A DNA stretch of 64,000 nucleotides from an uncultured Bacteroides sp. GTDB lineage: Bacteria > Bacteroidota > Bacteroidia > Bacteroidales > Bacteroidaceae. Within the stretch, counting starts at the first letter, position 1. Each line of letters begins with the position of its first letter. The stretch lies in assembly GCA_944322345.1 (NCBI GenBank), contig CALUOO010000010.1:1-64000 (forward strand). The letters run 5' to 3'. The notes beneath the pieces were generated by a model. The model ran no database searches and was not told where the DNA came from. It saw only the letters and a program-made list of their open reading frames with translations. This document shows, piece after piece, positions 2,344-11,200 of the stretch. The position numbers were made by a program, and so were the translations under genes.

Positions 2344-3573
2344 TTAAAGAATAAGTTTCATGTCCTTGGTCGCCTCGATGTACCTGTCCATATCGTCGAA
2401 CAGTTTTTTCGGAGTGACACGCGCGTATATCTGCGTGGTGCTGATATCCGAATGTCCGAGCATCTTGCTCACCGTTTCGATGGGCACGCCGTTCTCAAGC
2501 GTTATCAGGGTCGAGAACGAGTGCCGTCCCATATGGTAGGTAAGCGGGCCTTTAATCCCTGCCATGACCCTCAGGCTTGAAAGGTTCCACATCAACGCGG
2601 CATGTTCTATATGAGGGAGCAGCGTCTTGCGCGACTTGCTGTGGTATTTGTCTATCAGTTCGATGGCTTCCGGCAGCAGCTTCACACGCGACAGTTTTCC
2701 GTTCTTGCCGCGCTGGTATTTCAGCCACAATGCGCCGTCATCATCTTTGGAGAGATTGTCAGGCGTGACTGATACCGCGTCAATGTAGGAAGTACCCGTA
2801 TAGCAGGCAAAGAGGAAAAGGTCGCGGGTGACGTTGTGCGACCAGCGGTGCTCCTCTATCTCCAAGTCGCGCAGCCTCTCGAAGTCCTCACGGCTCAACG
2901 CCCTCGGGGTACGCTCTTTCTGTCTCGGAAGCGGATAATGCTCGAAGTGGCAGATGTCCGCATGGCCTTCCTTGAAAGCGATGCGGCAGACCTTCTTCAA
3001 CACGGACAGGTAGTGGCGTACCGTTTCTATGCCCAGCCCGTTTTCAATGACTACATATTCCTGAAACTCCCGTATGAACTGCTCGTTCAACTGGCAGAAG
3101 GCAAGGTCGGCGACCTTGTGCCGCTTGGCGATGAACTCTGCCAGCCTTCTCCGGGTATATACGTAGTTCGGCAGGGTACGGGAGGAATACTCCGTCCCGA
3201 TGAGCGACTTGATTTCCTCAATATGCCTGTCGAGCAGTTTCAGGAGTGTCATGCGGTTTTCCATGCCTCCTTGGAACAAGTCCCTGACCGCCGCCGCGTC
3301 AAAATCCATCCTACGGCTGACGAGCGTGTCGAATGCGGTGTTTATGGACATCAGCAGCCTGTCTATCCTCGCGTTCGTCTCCACCGCTTCCCGGCTCTTG
3401 CCGTCCAGACGGCTTTCCCTCGCGTTCCACAACTCCGGCGCACAGGACAGCTTGCAACTGAACTGCGCCATTGTCCGGTTCACTGTAATCCTTCCCATTA
3501 TCGGGGCCTTGCCCGACTTGTCCGTCACGCTCCTTTTCAGGTAGAGCAGCACCTTGAATTTCTCAATCTTCAT
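2344..3573 (-). CDS. Tyrosine recombinase/integrase (409 aa)
   Basis: The first gene of the leftward recombinase cassette. The N-terminal arm-binding segment begins MKIEKFKVLLYLKR. A core-binding domain spans about residues 105-205, and the C-terminal catalytic domain contains TYHMGRHSFSTL (H-x-x-R) and GHSDISTTQIYARV with the nucleophilic Tyr. The Arg-I position is again replaced (YTGTSYIDA). It shares only family-level similarity with the next gene, so the pair is not a recent duplication. Tandem, non-identical integrases occur in several Bacteroides mobilizable and hybrid elements, where both may be needed. Upstream (3574-3850) there is no gene; the promoter must lie there. Confidence 0.9.
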   Translation of the reverse strand: MKIEKFKVLLYLKRSVTDKSGKAPIMGRITVNRTMAQFSCKLSCAPELWNARESRLDGKSREAVETNARIDRLLMSINTAFDTLVSRRMDFDAAAVRDLFQGGMENRMTLLKLLDRHIEEIKSLIGTEYSSRTLPNYVYTRRRLAEFIAKRHKVADLAFCQLNEQFIREFQEYVVIENGLGIETVRHYLSVLKKVCRIAFKEGHADICHFEHYPLPRQKERTPRALSREDFERLRDLEIEEHRWSHNVTRDLFLFACYTGTSYIDAVSVTPDNLSKDDDGALWLKYQRGKNGKLSRVKLLPEAIELIDKYHSKSRKTLLPHIEHAALMWNLSSLRVMAGIKGPLTYHMGRHSFSTLITLENGVPIETVSKMLGHSDISTTQIYARVTPKKLFDDMDRYIEATKDMKLIL

Positions 3574-3853: not shown

Positions 3854-4065
3854 TTTGTTTACATTGCTCAAGGCATGGGTTTGCGACCCTGGCTCTCAGC
3901 AAAGGGATGCCAATCGAGAGCGTCAGCCGTATTTTGGGACATACGAACATTGAGACCACGCAAATCTATGCGAAGATAACCGTGCAGAAATTGGATAATG
4001 ACCTCACGATGTTGGGCGACAAACTGAGCAAATCATTCGGAAACGTGAAAATGGCAGGGATATGA
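3854..4065 (+). pseudogene. C-terminal remnant of a tyrosine recombinase
   Basis: About 70 codons on the plus strand, open from just after a TGA at about 3851 and lacking a plausible start codon, read CLHCSRHGFATLALSKG, then MPIESVSRILGHTNIETTQ and IYAKITVQKLDNDLTML. This is the catalytic end of an integrase: the H-x-x-R box, the GH motif and the Tyr nucleophile are kept. The N-terminal domain and most of the catalytic domain are missing. The stop overlaps the start of the next RhuM-like gene (ATGA at 4062-4065), the same coupling as in the intact cassette at 1112-1115. The sharp loss of homology near 3854 suggests a junction of element insertion or deletion. Confidence 0.75.
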
Positions 4066-4433
4066 AACGGGAAATAATCACAACGGACAGCTATGGTAGA
4101 ATTACCATACCATCCGATACAGGTAATATATGGATGAATGAAATGGAGCTGGTGGAACTGTTCGGGGTAATCGCCCCGACGCTCCGTGCCGCCATCCGTG
4201 CCGTGTACAAGTGTGGAGTTTTGAATCCTCTTGAAGCAGAAAAACGTATCAGGCTGCCCAACGGCTATTATGCGGACATGTATGCCCTGCCGATGGTGGT
4301 GGCACTCGCTTTCCGTATTGACACGTCAAGTACCGCAATGATTCGCAATGTCCTGCTGGAAAGATTGTGCCAGCGAAAAAAGGAACAAGTCCTGCTGGTA
4401 TCAATGAATAACAGGATGCCGTATGAATGTTAG
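4062..4433 (+). CDS. RhuM-like small protein downstream of integrase remnant
   Basis: A 123-residue homologue of the minus-strand protein at 735-1115. It has the same order of segments: an N-terminal beta region (REIITTDSYGRITIPSD), WMNEMELVELFGVIAPTLRA, VYKCGVLNPLEAEKRIRL, and a YADMYALPMVVALAFRI core. It starts inside the stop of a truncated integrase (4-bp overlap), which mirrors the intact integrase/RhuM-like pair. Identity between the two is modest by eye, so they come from different elements rather than a local duplication. It is followed by a clear terminator at 4558-4594. Function is unknown; a DNA-binding or regulatory role linked to recombination is a guess. Confidence 0.6.
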   Translation: MKREIITTDSYGRITIPSDTGNIWMNEMELVELFGVIAPTLRAAIRAVYKCGVLNPLEAEKRIRLPNGYYADMYALPMVVALAFRIDTSSTAMIRNVLLERLCQRKKEQVLLVSMNNRMPYEC

Positions 4434-5478: not shown

Positions 5479-6786
5479 ATGGGATATATAAGCATTCAAA
5501 TCAACAAAGCGAAAGGCTCGGCTGACACGGGCGCATCCGACCACATAGAACGTAAGACCATACCCAAGAACGCAGACCCTACACGTACACATCTCAACCG
5601 TGAACTGGTGGAGTTTCCCGATGGAGTGTCCGACCGTACCGAAGCGATAAGCCACCGCATCCGCACGGCTGGCATCAAGCGGAAGATAACTCCAGACCAA
5701 GTGCGGGCAATTAGAATCGTACTTTCGGGTACGCACGAGGATATGATGAAAATACAGGACGAGGGCAGACTTGATGAATGGTGTGATGACAACCTGCAAT
5801 GGCTGCACCGCACCTTCGGCAAGGAAAATACCGTTTCGGCAGTCCTGCACATGGATGAGCACACACCGCACATTCATGCCACGGTCGTACCGATAGTAAC
5901 AGGAGAGCGCAGGAAAGCCAAGAAAAAGCAGACGGAAGGTAAACGCTCCTACCGCAAGAAAGCCAATATCGTGCGTCTGTGTGCCGATGATGTGCTGACA
6001 CGTGAGAAACTCGTTGCCTATCACGACAGTTACGCAAGAGTAATGGAAAAATACGGTTTGCAACGTGGCGTACGTGGCTCGGAAGCACGGCATACGACAA
6101 CAGCCCAATACTACCGTGATTTGATACGGCAGACGGGTGAACTTGAAGCCAATGTGCAACAGTTACAGACAGAGCAGCAACAAGCAGAGCAACAGCTTGA
6201 CGAGGTAAGGCAGGAAGTCAAGTCGGAGAAACTGGAAGCAGCCAAGACGGAAGCGAAAGCCGCATTCGTGGCAAAAGTCTGTTCTCTTTTCGGTGGTGGT
6301 AAACTGAAAGAGTTTGAACATAGAAATGAAGATTTGCAAAAGCGCATACAGGAACTTGAAGAAAAAGCCATACAACGAGAAGAACAACATGTCAAGCAGA
6401 TGCAGGAAATGAAGAATGCTTACGAACGACAATACCGCAAACTATCGGAATTTACGGATTTTGTCAAACGCTACTTCCCTTATGTGGAAAAGCTGATGCC
6501 TACTATCAAGTTTTTGCGTGATACTCTGAATTTTAGCGATGGGCTAATCAAAAAGCTGTGCATGTTCAAGGATGTCACCATTAAAGGTAAACTCTATTCT
6601 TCTGAATTCCGACAGCTCTTTAAGACTGATGGTTCGATTTGTTCACTTAAAGAAACTTCGGATGGAAAATTTGACCTCAAAATAGACGGCGTTTCACATG
6701 TAAGTTGGTTCAGACGCAAGAAAGACGAGTATATGGAAGCATTGGGATTGCCAACGAAGAAACAAAATCGAGATATTAAGTTGTAA
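5479..6786 (+). CDS. mob: MobV/Pre-family plasmid mobilization relaxase
   Basis: A 435-residue relaxase of the Pre/MobV family, which nicks DNA at oriT to start conjugal mobilization using transfer machinery from a helper element. The N-terminal domain carries the family's metal-binding signature H-x-D-E-x-x-P-H-x-H (HMDEHTPHIH, residues 124-133). Upstream, the SHRI segment and the Asn in THLNREL resemble motif I, where MobV enzymes carry an Asn or Tyr-dependent nicking function. Residues about 210-325 are a long coiled coil (QQLQTEQQQAEQQL and following), usual for the family. The C-terminal 100 residues are unassigned. The gene stands alone, preceded by candidate oriT repeats and followed by the defence-like operon, which it probably helps to spread. 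Confidence 0.9.
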   Translation: MGYISIQINKAKGSADTGASDHIERKTIPKNADPTRTHLNRELVEFPDGVSDRTEAISHRIRTAGIKRKITPDQVRAIRIVLSGTHEDMMKIQDEGRLDEWCDDNLQWLHRTFGKENTVSAVLHMDEHTPHIHATVVPIVTGERRKAKKKQTEGKRSYRKKANIVRLCADDVLTREKLVAYHDSYARVMEKYGLQRGVRGSEARHTTTAQYYRDLIRQTGELEANVQQLQTEQQQAEQQLDEVRQEVKSEKLEAAKTEAKAAFVAKVCSLFGGGKLKEFEHRNEDLQKRIQELEEKAIQREEQHVKQMQEMKNAYERQYRKLSEFTDFVKRYFPYVEKLMPTIKFLRDTLNFSDGLIKKLCMFKDVTIKGKLYSSEFRQLFKTDGSICSLKETSDGKFDLKIDGVSHVSWFRRKKDEYMEALGLPTKKQNRDIKL

Positions 6787-6841: not shown

Positions 6842-6907
6842 TAGCTGGATTGAGACAACTCTTTCCAAGGCATATTAGAATAAAGAAGAAGCGTTATGCT
6901 AATCGTG

Positions 6908-7028
6908 GTGTCGGAAACCTAGGAAATTTCCCAAACATACAAACGATGATTGCATAGTGGTTCTCACGCTATAGCGTGGGCTGCTATTGTTATATCTGTT
7001 TGTATAGGTTTCCTAGGACCTCCGACAC
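6908..7028 (+). ncRNA. Long three-part stem-loop leader
   Basis: Three nested helices are visible: GTGTCGGA (6908-6915) with TCCGACAC (7021-7028); CCTAGGAAA (6918-6926) with TTTCCTAGG (7009-7017); ATACAAAC (6937-6944) with GTTTGTAT (6998-7005). The apex holds a 14-bp palindrome, CACGCTATAGCGTG (6965-6978). A further hairpin, GTGAAC/GTTCAC (7031-7050), lies just before the first gene. The order and spacing argue for a folded RNA, either a leader controlling the operon or a separate small RNA. A MITE-like inverted repeat is the alternative. I do not recognise the family. Confidence 0.6.
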
Positions 7029-7073
7029 AGGTGAACGATTTGTAGTTCACGCTTCGTGTTAAAAATATATGGT

Positions 7074-8327
7074 ATGATTTTTAAATGGCTTAAAAAACTA
7101 TTTGGATTATATGATAGTTCACCAACTGAAATCCCTGCAAATGGTGAACTCAAGCCATCTGCCTCTAAGTCGCTTTATGATGAACTTGACAAAAGGAAAG
7201 AACATGTAAAGCAAAATAGGGACAAACTTAAACAATCGCCAATTGATTGGTATTCTTTAAATACTCCTTCCCAAAAAGATGAATTACAAACTCGCGTCTT
7301 TTCTCCGCGTAAATTTGAGAATATACCTTCTCTCCAAACTTTAAAAGATGAAAGATTAAGGAAAGAGGCACATGAATTAAAAGTACGAGAGGAAAGAACA
7401 AAATCATTATTAGATAAACTTGAAACCCTTATTGCTCAGCGAAAGTTCCAAGAGGCAAAGCAAATAATGGATGAAATTACGCATGAAATAGTGCGTATAA
7501 AAGATTCGGTTCTAAGAAAACGATACACGGATATACAAAAGTCTTTATCTGAATTAGAAAGAGAATTAGAACATGAAAGACTTGTTAAGTTAGCTGAAGA
7601 ACAAAAACGCAAAGAGGAAGAAGAACGCAAGAAAAGAGAAAGAGAAGAAAAGGAAAGGGTTGAGAATGAAAAAAGAATAGCAGAAGAACGAATTCGGAAA
7701 CAACAGGAAGCAAATAGACTTGCCGAAGAAGCCAGAAAAAAAGAACAGGCAGAATTAGCAGAAAAGGAACGATTAGAGGTCCTATCTACTGAGCGAAAAG
7801 AAAATTGGTCTGATTTCAAACAAATATTGGACAACAATGGTATTCGATACCTATACCATTTTACGGATAGACGAAATATTCCATCCATTAAACGGCATGG
7901 AGGCTTATTTTCTTGGCAATATTGTGATACTCATGGCATAACAATCCCAAGCCCAGGAGGAATAGGGTTCGGGAGAAACTTGGACCTAAGGTATGGATTA
8001 GAAGATTATGTGCGTTTAAGCTTTTGCAAAGAACATCCAATGAAGTATATTGCAATGAAAGATGGGAGAATTCAGAATCCTGTTGTATTGCTTATAGATA
8101 TAGAAGTAGCTTATCTAAAAGGAACTTTATTTTCTGATATGAATGCTACAAAAACTGGGCACAAGACTGGTGGTGCTCTAAATGATTTAAGCAAAGTCCG
8201 TTTTGATATCGTTAAATTGCCAAATCATTTTAACTTGGAAGAACCTGAAAAGAGTTTTTACCAAGCCGAAATATTGGTGAAAACATTTATTCCTAAACGA
8301 TATATTGTAAATCTTGATAATTTTTGA
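7074..8327 (+). CDS. DarT-like ADP-ribosyltransferase with coiled-coil N-terminus
   Basis: A 417-residue protein. The C-terminal 165 residues match the DarT (DUF4433) fold by motif: LYHFTDRRNIPSI with Y261-H-F-T264 (NAD-binding loop), GLFSW shortly after, LEDYVRLSFCKEHPMKYI (about 309-326), which corresponds to the family's DYVPFYF-PRSPM segment, and FYQAEILV with the probable catalytic Glu399. DarT enzymes transfer ADP-ribose to bases in DNA; whether the target here is thymine or guanine cannot be read from sequence. Residues about 95-250 form a highly charged coiled coil (KRKEEEERKKREREEKER region), absent from stand-alone DarT toxins. I use ATG 7074; a GTG at 7056 is possible. It is the first gene of a four-gene operon, 3 bp before the next. 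Confidence 0.75.
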   Translation: MIFKWLKKLFGLYDSSPTEIPANGELKPSASKSLYDELDKRKEHVKQNRDKLKQSPIDWYSLNTPSQKDELQTRVFSPRKFENIPSLQTLKDERLRKEAHELKVREERTKSLLDKLETLIAQRKFQEAKQIMDEITHEIVRIKDSVLRKRYTDIQKSLSELERELEHERLVKLAEEQKRKEEEERKKREREEKERVENEKRIAEERIRKQQEANRLAEEARKKEQAELAEKERLEVLSTERKENWSDFKQILDNNGIRYLYHFTDRRNIPSIKRHGGLFSWQYCDTHGITIPSPGGIGFGRNLDLRYGLEDYVRLSFCKEHPMKYIAMKDGRIQNPVVLLIDIEVAYLKGTLFSDMNATKTGHKTGGALNDLSKVRFDIVKLPNHFNLEEPEKSFYQAEILVKTFIPKRYIVNLDNF

Positions 8328-8330
8328 ATT

Positions 8331-9023
8331 ATGATATACATAGAAAATAAAAAAAGAAAGTTGGAAAAAATAAAGGAAGAATATCCCAATGCTATAATAC
8401 TGGATATTACCTCTAATTCTGAGACGCGATATGCAAAAATATTGAGTCCGTTTTATCCACATGGAAATATACCTATTCCTTTTACTGACGGATTAAAGGC
8501 TACCTGTGTCGAAGCGGTCTGGCAAGGACTAAAAGTCTTTGAGAATGCAGGCGTGGATTTTGCGACATTCAAAAATGATACAATGCGAGATTTAAAACGG
8601 ACAGTACGAAAATATGGAATGCCCAAAGGACACAGTAAAGGAGCTTATAGTAAAGAGTTATTGGGATACTTTGAAGCGAGGATGCTTATCTATCTTCCAA
8701 CGTATAAATGGGTGCTGGATAACGTTCCCGAAGTTCATCATGTAATAGAAAGAATAAAAGCGCAAAGCAAAATTCAAGATATTGTATTATTAGATTATAA
8801 TACAAATATAGACTTTCGAGATATTTCAAAGCCATTGTCACACGCAGGTTTGGTAAAATTATACATTGACGGTAAATATCCCAATGGCATAGAGGATTAC
8901 CAGCCAATGACACAGGAAGAAATGGATGCAAAGAAAGTTAGGGAGAAAGAACTAAAGAAAGAACTAAAACGTAGGGCAAAAGAACGCAAAATCGCACAAA
9001 GCCAAAAACTGTTTGAAGAATAA
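8331..9023 (+). CDS. Probable NADAR-like partner of the DarT-like toxin (DUF6939-type)
   Basis: A 230-residue protein. Its core (residues 34-75) reads YAKILSPFYPHGNIPIPF, then CVEAVWQGLKVFE. The spacing E61-x3-Q65-x2-K68 equals the E-H-x-x-Q-x-x-K signature of NADAR/YbiA proteins, and S-P-F-Y-P-H-G sits where they carry their aromatic substrate loop. By memory it resembles the uncharacterised DUF6939 group. NADAR proteins are known as ADP-ribosyl-hydrolase antitoxins for some DarT toxins, so an antidote role is likely but inferred. The C-terminal 35 residues are a Lys/Arg/Glu-rich helix. It follows the toxin by 3 bp, which supports coupled expression. Confidence 0.6.
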   Translation: MIYIENKKRKLEKIKEEYPNAIILDITSNSETRYAKILSPFYPHGNIPIPFTDGLKATCVEAVWQGLKVFENAGVDFATFKNDTMRDLKRTVRKYGMPKGHSKGAYSKELLGYFEARMLIYLPTYKWVLDNVPEVHHVIERIKAQSKIQDIVLLDYNTNIDFRDISKPLSHAGLVKLYIDGKYPNGIEDYQPMTQEEMDAKKVREKELKKELKRRAKERKIAQSQKLFEE

Positions 9024-9047
9024 GTTGAACAATTAGAATTTGTAAAG

Positions 9048-10553
9048 ATGGAAATGATACAAGAATACATCGGTTTAATTATCGCGGTCATCGTTGTAGC
9101 TGCTGTTATTATATTTCAAATTCGTAGCTTCCTTAAAACAAAAGGGAAAATTAAAGAGCTTGATAGCTTGTTTGAAGATGTTGACACTCTGTCGCTAAAA
9201 GAAACGTCTATTACACCGAGTGTACTAAGGAATAAAGAGTTTCTACAGAAATTTTTGCAAAGCATTCCACCACGCCATAATGATGAAAACGGTGATGAAA
9301 GCAAGGATTATACAGACTTATCACTTATTGTTTTTCAGGACGGGAGTAAGTCTTCCAATAAGAGATTTAAAATGATTATCAATCGCACGAATGAGTACTT
9401 GTGCAAAAATACAGGGACAAGTGCTGATTTAGGGGTATTAGAAGACATATGTGACAGTCAAAAAGAAACATTAGAGGATGAAATACAAAATAGCCTTAAT
9501 GTTCCTCTATATTTAGGACTTGCAGGCACTTTTATAGGAATTATTACAGGATTATTGGGTGTTGATTTTGACCAAATTTTTGGCAACTCAAATAACTTGA
9601 ATGGATTACAACATTTATTATATGGCATAGTTGCAGCTATGTGTGCAAGTTTATTAGGCTTAGGTTTTACCGTATATAATAGTGCTGTAACATATAAGGC
9701 TGCTGTAAGCAAATGTGACAACGGTAAAGGAAATTATATGAATTTCCTAAGACGTGAATTGATGCCATTATTATCAAATAGTATGGCTTCAAGCCTAAAT
9801 TCATTAAAGGGAGTATTAGGACACTTTGTAGATAAATTTGGTAGGAATTTAGATGCCTATGCCGATTCTGCTGAATTATTAAACGACAATTTGGAGAAAC
9901 AACATTTAGTCTTAGCGGAAATAAACAAACTGAGTTTAACTCGAACCGCTAATAAAATTGCAGAAACCTTTATGCAATTAAAAGATTCATCCGATGCATT
10001 AGCTGTTTTCCGTACATACCAAGAACAACTCAATTCGACAATATCCAATGCATCAGGAGTTATAAATCAAATACAAACTTTAATTGGTAAATTCGAAAAT
10101 TTCTCTACAGGACTTTCCATTGTTATAAGTAATCAGAATAAAACTGCCGAGCTTCAGCGAGAGTTTCAAGAAGCAATAACGACCCATTTTCCGACAGGGG
10201 CAGAAGCAAGGGAGATTTGGAGAAAGGAATTTGATTTGCTTATGTCTGAAGGGAAACACGTTTCTGAAAGTTTGTCAGCACAACTTACAGCATCAACGGA
10301 ATACATTCAGAATTTTGTCACCAATAACAAAGAGTTCTTTGATACATTTGATAAGCTGAAAGAAGTGCTTGATATAATGATACAATATACGCAAGTTCAA
10401 GCGGAATGTTATAAGGATATGAAGGGTGAAATATTAAATCTGAGAACGGATTTTCATAACGCTCAACTTGAGGATATAGAGTTAAACAAATCGATTCTTA
10501 AGGCTATAGAAACAATGACAGAATCTATTAAAAACTTAAAAGAAGAAAAGTAA
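9048..10553 (+). CDS. MotA/TolQ/ExbB-like membrane protein with coiled-coil tail (ZorA-like)
   Basis: A 501-residue inner-membrane protein. TM1 is at about residues 7-25. Two adjoining TM helices, VPLYLGLAGTFIGIITGLLGV (152-172) and LLYGIVAAMCASLLGLGFTVY (about 190-211), carry the glycine-rich pattern of MotA/TolQ/ExbB proton-channel subunits. After them residues about 230-500 are almost entirely helical coiled coil, facing the cytoplasm. This layout matches ZorA of Zorya defence systems, where the channel subunits pair with ZorB and the long tail signals to effectors. It is shorter than many ZorA proteins. It overlaps nothing and lies 2 bp before the ZorB-like gene. The effectors known for Zorya (ZorC, ZorD, ZorE, ZorF/G) are absent here. 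Confidence 0.8.
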   Translation: MEMIQEYIGLIIAVIVVAAVIIFQIRSFLKTKGKIKELDSLFEDVDTLSLKETSITPSVLRNKEFLQKFLQSIPPRHNDENGDESKDYTDLSLIVFQDGSKSSNKRFKMIINRTNEYLCKNTGTSADLGVLEDICDSQKETLEDEIQNSLNVPLYLGLAGTFIGIITGLLGVDFDQIFGNSNNLNGLQHLLYGIVAAMCASLLGLGFTVYNSAVTYKAAVSKCDNGKGNYMNFLRRELMPLLSNSMASSLNSLKGVLGHFVDKFGRNLDAYADSAELLNDNLEKQHLVLAEINKLSLTRTANKIAETFMQLKDSSDALAVFRTYQEQLNSTISNASGVINQIQTLIGKFENFSTGLSIVISNQNKTAELQREFQEAITTHFPTGAEAREIWRKEFDLLMSEGKHVSESLSAQLTASTEYIQNFVTNNKEFFDTFDKLKEVLDIMIQYTQVQAECYKDMKGEILNLRTDFHNAQLEDIELNKSILKAIETMTESIKNLKEEK

Positions 10554-10555
10554 TT

Positions 10556-11200
10556 ATGTCAAAAAACAGAAGTAATACTTTCTGGTTAAGTTATTCTGAC
10601 CTCATGACAAGCTTGTTTTTCATTATGCTTGTTCTATTTATAGTGTGTGTCGTTAAGATGAAAGGTATTAATACACAATTAGATAAGGAGGTAAACGCTA
10701 AAGAGGAACAGCTCAGAAAAATCGAAGAACTAAATAACTCGATTAAAGAAATAGATGATAAGTATTTCGCATACGATGAGCAATTCAAGAGGCATACATT
10801 AAAAGACATTGAAGTCTCTTTTAATACATATAGTTCTAATATCCATGATATAGAGCGAGAACAACTTGAGAAGTTATTAAAAGCAGGTCAGGCAATCGTC
10901 CGTTTTATGAATAGTGCAAAAAGCAAAATTCCAGAAGCTCAATACATGCTTATCATAGAAGGACAATCGTCAAAAGATTATTATACAAGAAATTATGAGC
11001 TTAGCTATGAAAGAGCATTGGCTCTAATTAAATTCTGGTCTAGTAATGGTATTGAGTTCGATTCACTTGGCAATTGTGAGGTTTTAATCTCAGGAAGTGG
11101 ACAATCAAGCAAATTTAGAGTTCAACCTGATGTTAGAGGGAATAAAGATAACCAACGATTTGTTATACACATAATTCCGAAACCCGGCATCATAGAATAA
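10556..11200 (+). CDS. MotB/OmpA-like peptidoglycan-binding stator partner (ZorB-like)
   Basis: A 214-residue protein with one TM helix directly after a short cytoplasmic N-terminus: FWLSYSDLMTSLFFIMLVLF. Asp15 in the S-Y-S-D-L-M-T motif corresponds to the proton-binding Asp of MotB/ZorB. A periplasmic helix follows, then an OmpA-like domain (about 110-212): MLIIEGQSS, NYELSYERALALIKFW, GIEFDSL, and a final strand RFVIHIIPKPG. Such domains bind peptidoglycan and anchor the stator. It is the last gene of the operon, 2 bp after the ZorA-like gene. Together they should form an A5B2-type ion-driven complex, by analogy with Zorya and MotAB. Confidence 0.8.
   Translation: MSKNRSNTFWLSYSDLMTSLFFIMLVLFIVCVVKMKGINTQLDKEVNAKEEQLRKIEELNNSIKEIDDKYFAYDEQFKRHTLKDIEVSFNTYSSNIHDIEREQLEKLLKAGQAIVRFMNSAKSKIPEAQYMLIIEGQSSKDYYTRNYELSYERALALIKFWSSNGIEFDSLGNCEVLISGSGQSSKFRVQPDVRGNKDNQRFVIHIIPKPGIIE

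Follow-up and report, generated by a model that had tools for sequence, protein, structure and literature searches.

A four-gene operon in a 64,000-nucleotide stretch of DNA from an uncultured Bacteroides sp. (contig CALUOO010000010.1, positions 1 to 64,000; hereafter the window) probably encodes a single unit, in which a Zorya-like ZorAB motor would hold an adaptor-fused DarT on the cytoplasmic side and a NADAR-like protein is supplied by the same operon. Through the adaptor, the motor seems to be linked to a DNA-damaging effector that can be exchanged; here this is DarT, whose action NADAR would reverse. By analogy with the known systems, the unit resembles Zorya in its predicted working but is placed outside types I to III. 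An earlier note on this DNA had read the four genes as a motor-controlled phage defence, and its interpretation as a whole is partly supported by the results below.

Results

Four adjacent genes of recognisable families

The four genes all lie on the forward strand, with gaps of 3, 24 and 2 bp, and their limits agree with those proposed in the earlier note: gene 1, an adaptor-DarT fusion (7074-8327, 417 residues), gene 2, a NADAR-like protein of the DUF6939 family (8331-9023), gene 3, ZorA-like (9048-10553), and gene 4, ZorB-like (10556-11200). For gene 1, the ATG at 7074 agrees better with the homologues than the upstream GTG at 7056. Searches with hidden Markov models (HMM) of Pfam and PADLOC bore out the four family assignments, that of ZorA being the weakest, and the motifs on which the note had relied (YHFT, QAEILV with E399, E-x3-Q-x2-K and Asp15) were found to be present and conserved.

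Gene 1 begins with an adaptor (residues 1-175; 7074..7598), which is helical, conserved and probably coiled-coil, with a Trp59 that is invariant in the alignment. It is followed by a charged linker (7599..7835), lysine, arginine, glutamate and aspartate making up 59% of residues 151-250, and by the DarT ADP-ribosyltransferase domain (7836..8327). Residues 261-413 match Pfam DarT (3e-27; 96.1 bits for a cut-off of 22.5), and the protein scores 44 bits against NCBIfam toxin_DarT, for which the cut-off is 150. His262 and Thr264 of the HxT motif and Gln397 and Glu399 of the QxE motif (window numbering) are invariant in 18 of 18 DarT-domain rows, in an alignment from which L112 (unknown residue), L010 (split gene) and repeats were left out; loci other than the window are designated by such L numbers throughout. 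The DarT profile matched four PDB entries up to an E-value of 1, namely 7omu (6.6e-12), 8baq (1.3e-9), 7omv (4.2e-6) and 7yk3 (0.018), none of which was recovered with the window gene 1 as a single sequence. They are labelled DarT, DNA ADP-ribosyltransferase or macrodomain protein; 8baq is the DarT1 of E. coli C7, we take 7omu, 7omv and 7yk3 to be DarT2-like structures, and the macrodomain-labelled entry is presumably a DarTG fusion. The family carries a serine at the position of a tyrosine in 7omu, 7omv and 7yk3, all three aligned there without gaps, as DarT1 reportedly does, the alignment with 8baq being shifted there. The base-contacting asparagine of the family is also present in 7omu and 7yk3 and is hence unspecific for the base.

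Gene 2 (E61, K68 and D155 invariant) is a predicted ADP-ribosyl hydrolase and the presumed antitoxin. It belongs to Pfam DUF6939 (4.2e-69) and also matches Pfam NADAR-DarT1 (7.5e-7) with 29.3 bits, above the cut-off of 27, while PADLOC returned weak SduA matches (0.0014 and 0.0069). Glu61, Lys68 and Asp155 are kept in all 22 DUF6939 rows. The catalytic residues of the E. coli C7 NADAR are E88, K95 and D171 (PMC11543638; statements from papers cited here and below concern the sections that were available). The Glu-Lys spacing of 7 is the same in both proteins, and the Asp stands 94 residues past the Glu in gene 2 versus 83 in the E. coli C7 protein. Against the PDB, the gene 2 profile reached the NADAR structure 8bat weakly (0.094), behind two unrelated matches (0.011 and 0.017), and a narrower alignment gave no NADAR match. 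Searches with DUF6939 yielded matches in 6 of 100 relatives and in 7 of 393 members of the order, which represent 13 distinct loci. DarT adjoins DUF6939 or lies one gene off in ten of them (the window, L049, L051, L052, L054, L111-L114 and L116) and was absent nearby in three (L050, L053 and L115), so that gene 2 behaves as a partner or antitoxin of DarT would. ZorAB accompanies DUF6939 in two of the 13 (the window and L052), and the DarT-DUF6939 pair is thus wider than its link to ZorAB. At L051, L049, L111, L113 and L114, DarT forms the N-terminal part of a protein of about 480 residues, and L051 has a Schlafen/AlbA-HATPase neighbour. Relatives of gene 2 with 42-53% identity occur on Prevotella, Kitasatospora and Bartonella plasmids (NZ_CP091789.1, NZ_CP115452.1 and NZ_CP104891.1), which extends the family beyond Bacteroidota. 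No copies of gene 2 or of the DarT domain were found in phage records.

Gene 3 would encode a MotA/TolQ-type channel subunit, with hydrophobic segments at about residues 7-25, 154-174 and 187-209 and with a tail, rich in heptads, that reaches residue 501. Its top PADLOC match is ZorA1 (6.4e-9), the tail scores 0.105 in heptad windows compared to a maximum of 0.040 across 30 shuffles, and no copies of the gene were found in viral contigs. Gene 4 would be a stator with a single membrane helix bearing Asp15 and a periplasmic OmpA-like domain. It matches ZorB1 in PADLOC (1.7e-17), is far under the NCBIfam ZorB1 cut-off (28.5 of 400 bits), and retains Asp15 in 12 of 12 rows within the motif FWLSYSDLMTS. 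The three top PDB matches of its family profile were 8vvn (3.4e-9), 8qyd (1.8e-6), which we take to be a ZorAB structure, and 8vvi (8.5e-4). The entries 8vvn and 8vvi are ZorAB structures (PMC11890865). In types I to III of Zorya, ZorAB works with ZorCD, ZorE or ZorFG. The earlier note had contrasted these partners with DarT and NADAR, and PADLOC gave no match to ZorC-G when the four proteins of the operon and those of 16 neighbouring genes (between 13 and 23695) were scanned.

Recurrence of the four-gene order

A scan of the genome collection with gene 3 gave 14 loci (L002-L015), in 11 of which the order DarT, NADAR, ZorA, ZorB is complete, with ZorA identities down to 63%. The three remaining loci are L007, which starts at ZorA at a contig end, L015, also at a contig end (564 bases ahead of ZorA, holding a 107-residue open reading frame (ORF) and no NADAR), and L013, which has another effector. 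With the ZorA profile, whole genomes were searched at the level of the order (13 of 393 members matched), the family (28 of 399) and the phylum (3 of 296), the window being included in each count. Most of these matches are distant (E-values of 1e-19 to 1e-73), and 16 of the 27 non-own matching genomes were retrieved at family level. These searches added the close loci L037 and L083, and a Parabacteroides distasonis plasmid added L118; L052 and L082 were dropped as repeats of L012 and L014.

All four genes are present at 14 of the 18 loci with a close ZorA (the window, L002-L006, L008-L012, L014, L083 and L118), or at 14 of 16 where upstream DNA is available; of the other four, L013 and L037 have other partners and L007 and L015 are cut by contig ends. 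The operons of L003, L004, L012 and L118 are 99.97-100% identical across 3673 bases, and after merging of near-identical copies the count becomes 11 of 15 close loci, or 11 of 13 with upstream DNA. The co-occurrence that the earlier note had asked to be counted is therefore conserved. Since the order recurs across loci, a chance neighbourhood of the four genes was ruled out. Taken at the level of protein families, gene 1 appears to hold an ADP-ribosyltransferase domain, gene 2 to be related to NADAR and the four genes to recur together, these being the three points on which the earlier reading could have failed.

Gaps between the genes are mostly of -7 to +24 bp across loci. The exceptions concern ZorA and ZorB, with -17 in L008 and L010 and with -116 in L009, where the ORF start was called too early. 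A 4-base overlap of genes 1 and 2 is clear in L005, L009 and L011, and the overlaps called in L003, L004 and L012 hinge on an earlier start codon. The L002 contig starts inside gene 1. L008 is labelled as a Bacilli bin and sits on a 4.4-kb contig, which is likely a binning error. The L118 proteins are annotated publicly as hypothetical or as DUF4433, presumably an older name for DarT.

An adaptor that keeps company with the motor

We built an HMM of the adaptor, which matched 14 of the 675 ORFs predicted in the loci retrieved, every one of the 14 directly upstream of ZorA or of NADAR-ZorA. Seven of these matches are training rows and four are repeats of others, leaving L002, L010 and L013 as independent. 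Over whole genomes, one clear match and two marginal ones were obtained among 393. Nine other coiled-coil or DarT proteins scored at most 5.1 bits, the top one being the short ORF before the ZorA of L015. In L013, which was absent from the training set, the adaptor reached 64.9 bits compared to a maximum of 8.6 in 500 shuffles, and the extension of gene 1 thus keeps company with the motor when the effector differs. The earlier note had described this extension as a coiled coil that could touch the ZorA-like tail. A heptad pattern does run from residue 93 to 166; the measure for the whole protein (0.051) falls within the range of its shuffles (up to 0.064), and a coiled coil is therefore plausible rather than shown. 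The evidence for a link between adaptor and motor is evolutionary, and suggests it at the level of sequence.

Apparent exchange of effector, reversing enzyme and sensor

Comparison of the window with L002 located the variation within the unit. ZorA is 97% identical, the membrane part of ZorB 94%, its periplasmic part 98%, NADAR 95% and the adaptor 97% over the portion present in L002, versus 59% for the DarT domain. At the DNA level, in steps of 100 bases, identity is 96-100% over 7301-7900, 56-62% over 7901-8300 and 84-100% from there to 11200. Gene 1 of L002 carries in addition a tail of 221 residues with leucine-rich repeats (LRR_4, 6.7e-7). In L013, the adaptor is joined to nuclease-like domains, NADAR is lacking and the motor is kept; the nuclease-like matches are all weak (PDDEXK_1 4.4e-4 with 20.7 bits for a cut-off of 22, DUF559 0.0045, Cas4 2.1e-5). 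L013 lies inside a supported clade of 11 in the ZorA tree (96/99), and the DarT-bearing L010 and L083 lie outside it, so that replacement of DarT in L013 is the simpler reading. A distant relative, L038 (ZorA E-value 3.9e-73), encodes on one strand ZorAB, a TPR-DarT protein (1.4e-17) and an ADP-ribosylglycohydrolase (9e-45).

The periplasmic parts of ZorB fall into two groups, of 82-98% or 30-40% identity to the window, which do not track ZorA identity: L008 and L010 combine a ZorA of 71% and 63% with a ZorB of 84% and 82%, and L011 and L007 a ZorA of 75% and 73% with a ZorB of 34%. Tree positions differ too, but many of the forks are poorly supported. As far as such comparisons tell, the unit is modular: the catalytic domain and the reversing enzyme appear exchanged between relatives on a constant ZorA core, and the ZorB sensor domain has probably been exchanged as well.

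The arrangement of L038 (2185-11422) was seen in one locus and adjoins an MmeI/Eco57I-like restriction enzyme. The PP2C phosphatase encoded at L037 has a possible coiled coil. The distant ZorA relatives L039-L048, L084-L097, L109 and L110, many of which resemble each other in gene sizes, were not counted with the system, and Pfam was run on proteins of L039, L040, L041, L044 and L093. L093, L041, L044 and loci of similar gene sizes (among L042-L048, L084-L097, L109 and L110) have a gene set that includes a distant pair resembling ZorAB. In L093 it includes a 486-residue, weakly tubulin-like protein and a 1177-residue protein weakly resembling Ppx/GppA, and in L044 a 612-residue protein with a weak FtsA match, all three below the Pfam cut-offs; the large protein of L041 has no Pfam match.

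Mobile setting and a conserved hairpin

The mobile setting described in the earlier note was confirmed. Upstream of the operon lie a MobV-like relaxase of the carrying element (5479..6786, forward strand; Mob_Pre 2.1e-26) and two tyrosine integrases on the reverse strand (1112-2323 and 2344-3573; 1.8e-14 and 1.3e-15). PADLOC matches among the neighbours comprise coiled-coil-type matches of the relaxase (JetC, LmuB, DruC), a mad1 match of a protein of 126 residues, and matches of two small proteins to PDC-S05/S23, the candidate family PDC-S05 being matched at 735-1115 on the reverse strand (7.5e-14) and at 4062-4433 on the forward strand (1.9e-7).

Between relaxase and operon, a long conserved hairpin (6885..7045, forward strand) has a folding z of -7.2 and no match in Rfam up to an E-value of 1. 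In ten aligned copies, 19 of the 53 pairs change on both sides, and 96% of the cells are paired, compared to 38-44% when slid. Four of the five measures are reached by none of 500 shuffles, and the fifth by 53; the ten sequences, two of them near-identical, also served to derive the structure, L118 (a repeat) and L120 (badly cut) being excluded. In pBUN1 the hairpin has mobV on one side and a beta-lactamase gene on the other, and in a Parabacteroides plasmid it lies ahead of AbiE-like genes. It probably belongs to the mobile-element backbone rather than to the four-gene unit, and may be a structured element, RNA or DNA, where backbone and cargo meet in Bacteroidales mobile elements.

Discussion

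Zorya depends on the channel Asp and on the ZorA tail; ZorAB senses and DNA-damaging effectors are recruited, a recruitment for which a flexible rod has been suggested (PMC11890865). We propose by analogy that the periplasmic part of ZorB would respond to an envelope disturbance caused by a phage, and that ion flow past the conserved Asp15 would then move the ZorA tail. The tail might recruit or unlock the adaptor-DarT protein near incoming DNA, a step suggested by the evolutionary link between adaptor and motor. DarT, whose active site is conserved, would attach ADP-ribose to single-stranded DNA, probably at guanine bases, and stall replication. NADAR, whose catalytic residues are also conserved, would clear stray ADP-ribose off host DNA, which would set a threshold and might permit recovery. 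Gating by the motor, DNA as the target and a role in phage defence thus follow from known relatives of the four proteins. We lean, if only slightly, towards seeing here a fourth Zorya-like immunity, a motor-gated and reversible ADP-ribosylation of DNA, in which sensor, effector and reversing enzyme are swapped on a constant motor and adaptor. The effectors would then comprise two sorts of DarT, an LRR-extended DarT, a nuclease and perhaps a PP2C, and the reversing enzymes NADAR or ADP-ribosylglycohydrolase.

The unit appears to share with Zorya I to III the MotA/MotB-like pair, the Asp in the ZorB helix, the long ZorA tail, the OmpA-like periplasmic domain and a presumed DNA-damaging effector within the operon. 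Unlike in these types, the effector is a predicted ADP-ribosyltransferase fused to an adaptor and comes with a reversing enzyme. The unit is found in Bacteroidales, whereas other genera are the main carriers of Zorya I to III (PMC11890865). DarTG1 likewise sets a DarT domain (DarT1) beside a NADAR protein whose Glu, Lys and Asp correspond to those of gene 2, but is described as a two-gene unit (PMC11543638), whereas in the window about 250 residues precede the DarT domain and two motor genes follow, and gene 2 comes from the DUF6939 branch. With DarTG2, a pair of DarT2 and the macrodomain protein DarG, the unit shares the logic of reversible base ADP-ribosylation; it differs in having a NADAR-like partner and no macrodomain, and a Ser in place of the Tyr of the presumably DarT2-like structures.

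Several observations weigh against a single Zorya-like unit. Gene 3 scored 9.2 bits against NCBIfam ZorA, far under the cut-off of 100, and a search of the PDB retrieved no solved ZorA, TolQ matching at 0.17 at best, so gene 3 is placed only weakly within Zorya. In ZorB I, peptidoglycan is bound by His186, Leu199, Arg203, Arg254 and Arg259, and the contacting His is required in ZorB I and II (PMC11890865). When these residues were mapped via the 8vvn alignment, all 12 rows of the gene 4 family proved to carry Q, N, Y or M in place of the His, a further difference from Zorya, and the Leu and Arg of LSxxRA and an Arg of NxRF were retained; the sensor may therefore read peptidoglycan differently from ZorB I and II. 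The structure model of gene 2 has a mean predicted local distance difference test score (pLDDT) of 50.9 and is unusable for fold assignment. In L010 gene 1 is broken into two frames and in L012 it is truncated at its N-terminus, and some copies of the operon may thus be inactive. L083 has DarT, NADAR and ZorAB with no detectable adaptor, and in L037 (5646-10416) the motor is flanked by PP2C (5.5e-25) and VWA (2.9e-8) proteins instead. Finally, ZorE was effective without ZorAB versus one phage (PMC13192584, a 2026 preprint).

The genes could also represent two independent defences, a DarT-NADAR toxin-antitoxin pair travelling with a ZorAB whose effector is elsewhere or lost, which we hold to be unlikely though worth keeping in mind. 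It would account for the DarT-DUF6939 pairs that have no ZorA match in the fetched stretch (L051, L054 and L111-L114; L049 and L116, on short contigs, are uninformative). Against it stand the absence of ZorC-G matches reported above, the preservation of gene order and spacing over wide divergence, the presence of the adaptor in gene 1 with either a DarT or a nuclease-like part, and the concentration of the window/L002 difference in the catalytic domain. Next in order, and improbable too, is that ZorAB restrains a membrane-tethered, inactive DarT, which would act as an abortive-infection toxin once freed by loss of the ion gradient or damage to the envelope, NADAR being a safety device. The genetics are as compatible with such a restraint as with recruitment by the motor, and the presence of a reversing enzyme suggests a leaky effector that damages the host; Zorya effectors are, however, described as recruited to ZorAB upon infection (PMC11890865). 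That the target is RNA or protein and the unit serves a stress response or a non-phage conflict is very improbable, for although the sequence is ambiguous as to the base modified, the four PDB matches of the DarT profile carry the labels given above, NADARs act on DNA to reverse adducts of guanine (PMC11543638) and the domains replacing DarT in L013 are nuclease-like.

We therefore keep to the single motor-adaptor-DarT-NADAR unit as the best explanation. Its combination of a membrane motor with a pair of enzymes that tag and untag DNA was not found in the open-licence PMC literature searched: among the matches listed, no title or abstract start joined ZorAB to DarT or NADAR, and DUF6939 had no full-text match. 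The available sections of PMC12255303 and PMC11811056 do not join Zorya and DarT, and those of PMC11543638, PMC11125620, PMC9503650, PMC7159879 and PMC13192584 hold no link of ZorAB to DarT or NADAR.

Two reversing enzymes from different families stand beside ZorAB-DarT, and the motor is a candidate trigger for DarT-type toxins. For Zorya, the question is how the ZorAB motor passes its signal to the effector. The part presumed to perform this hand-over is here a domain of its own, which is joined to the effector, is retained when the effector differs and lends itself to tests by cassette swapping and by pull-downs using the ZorA tail.

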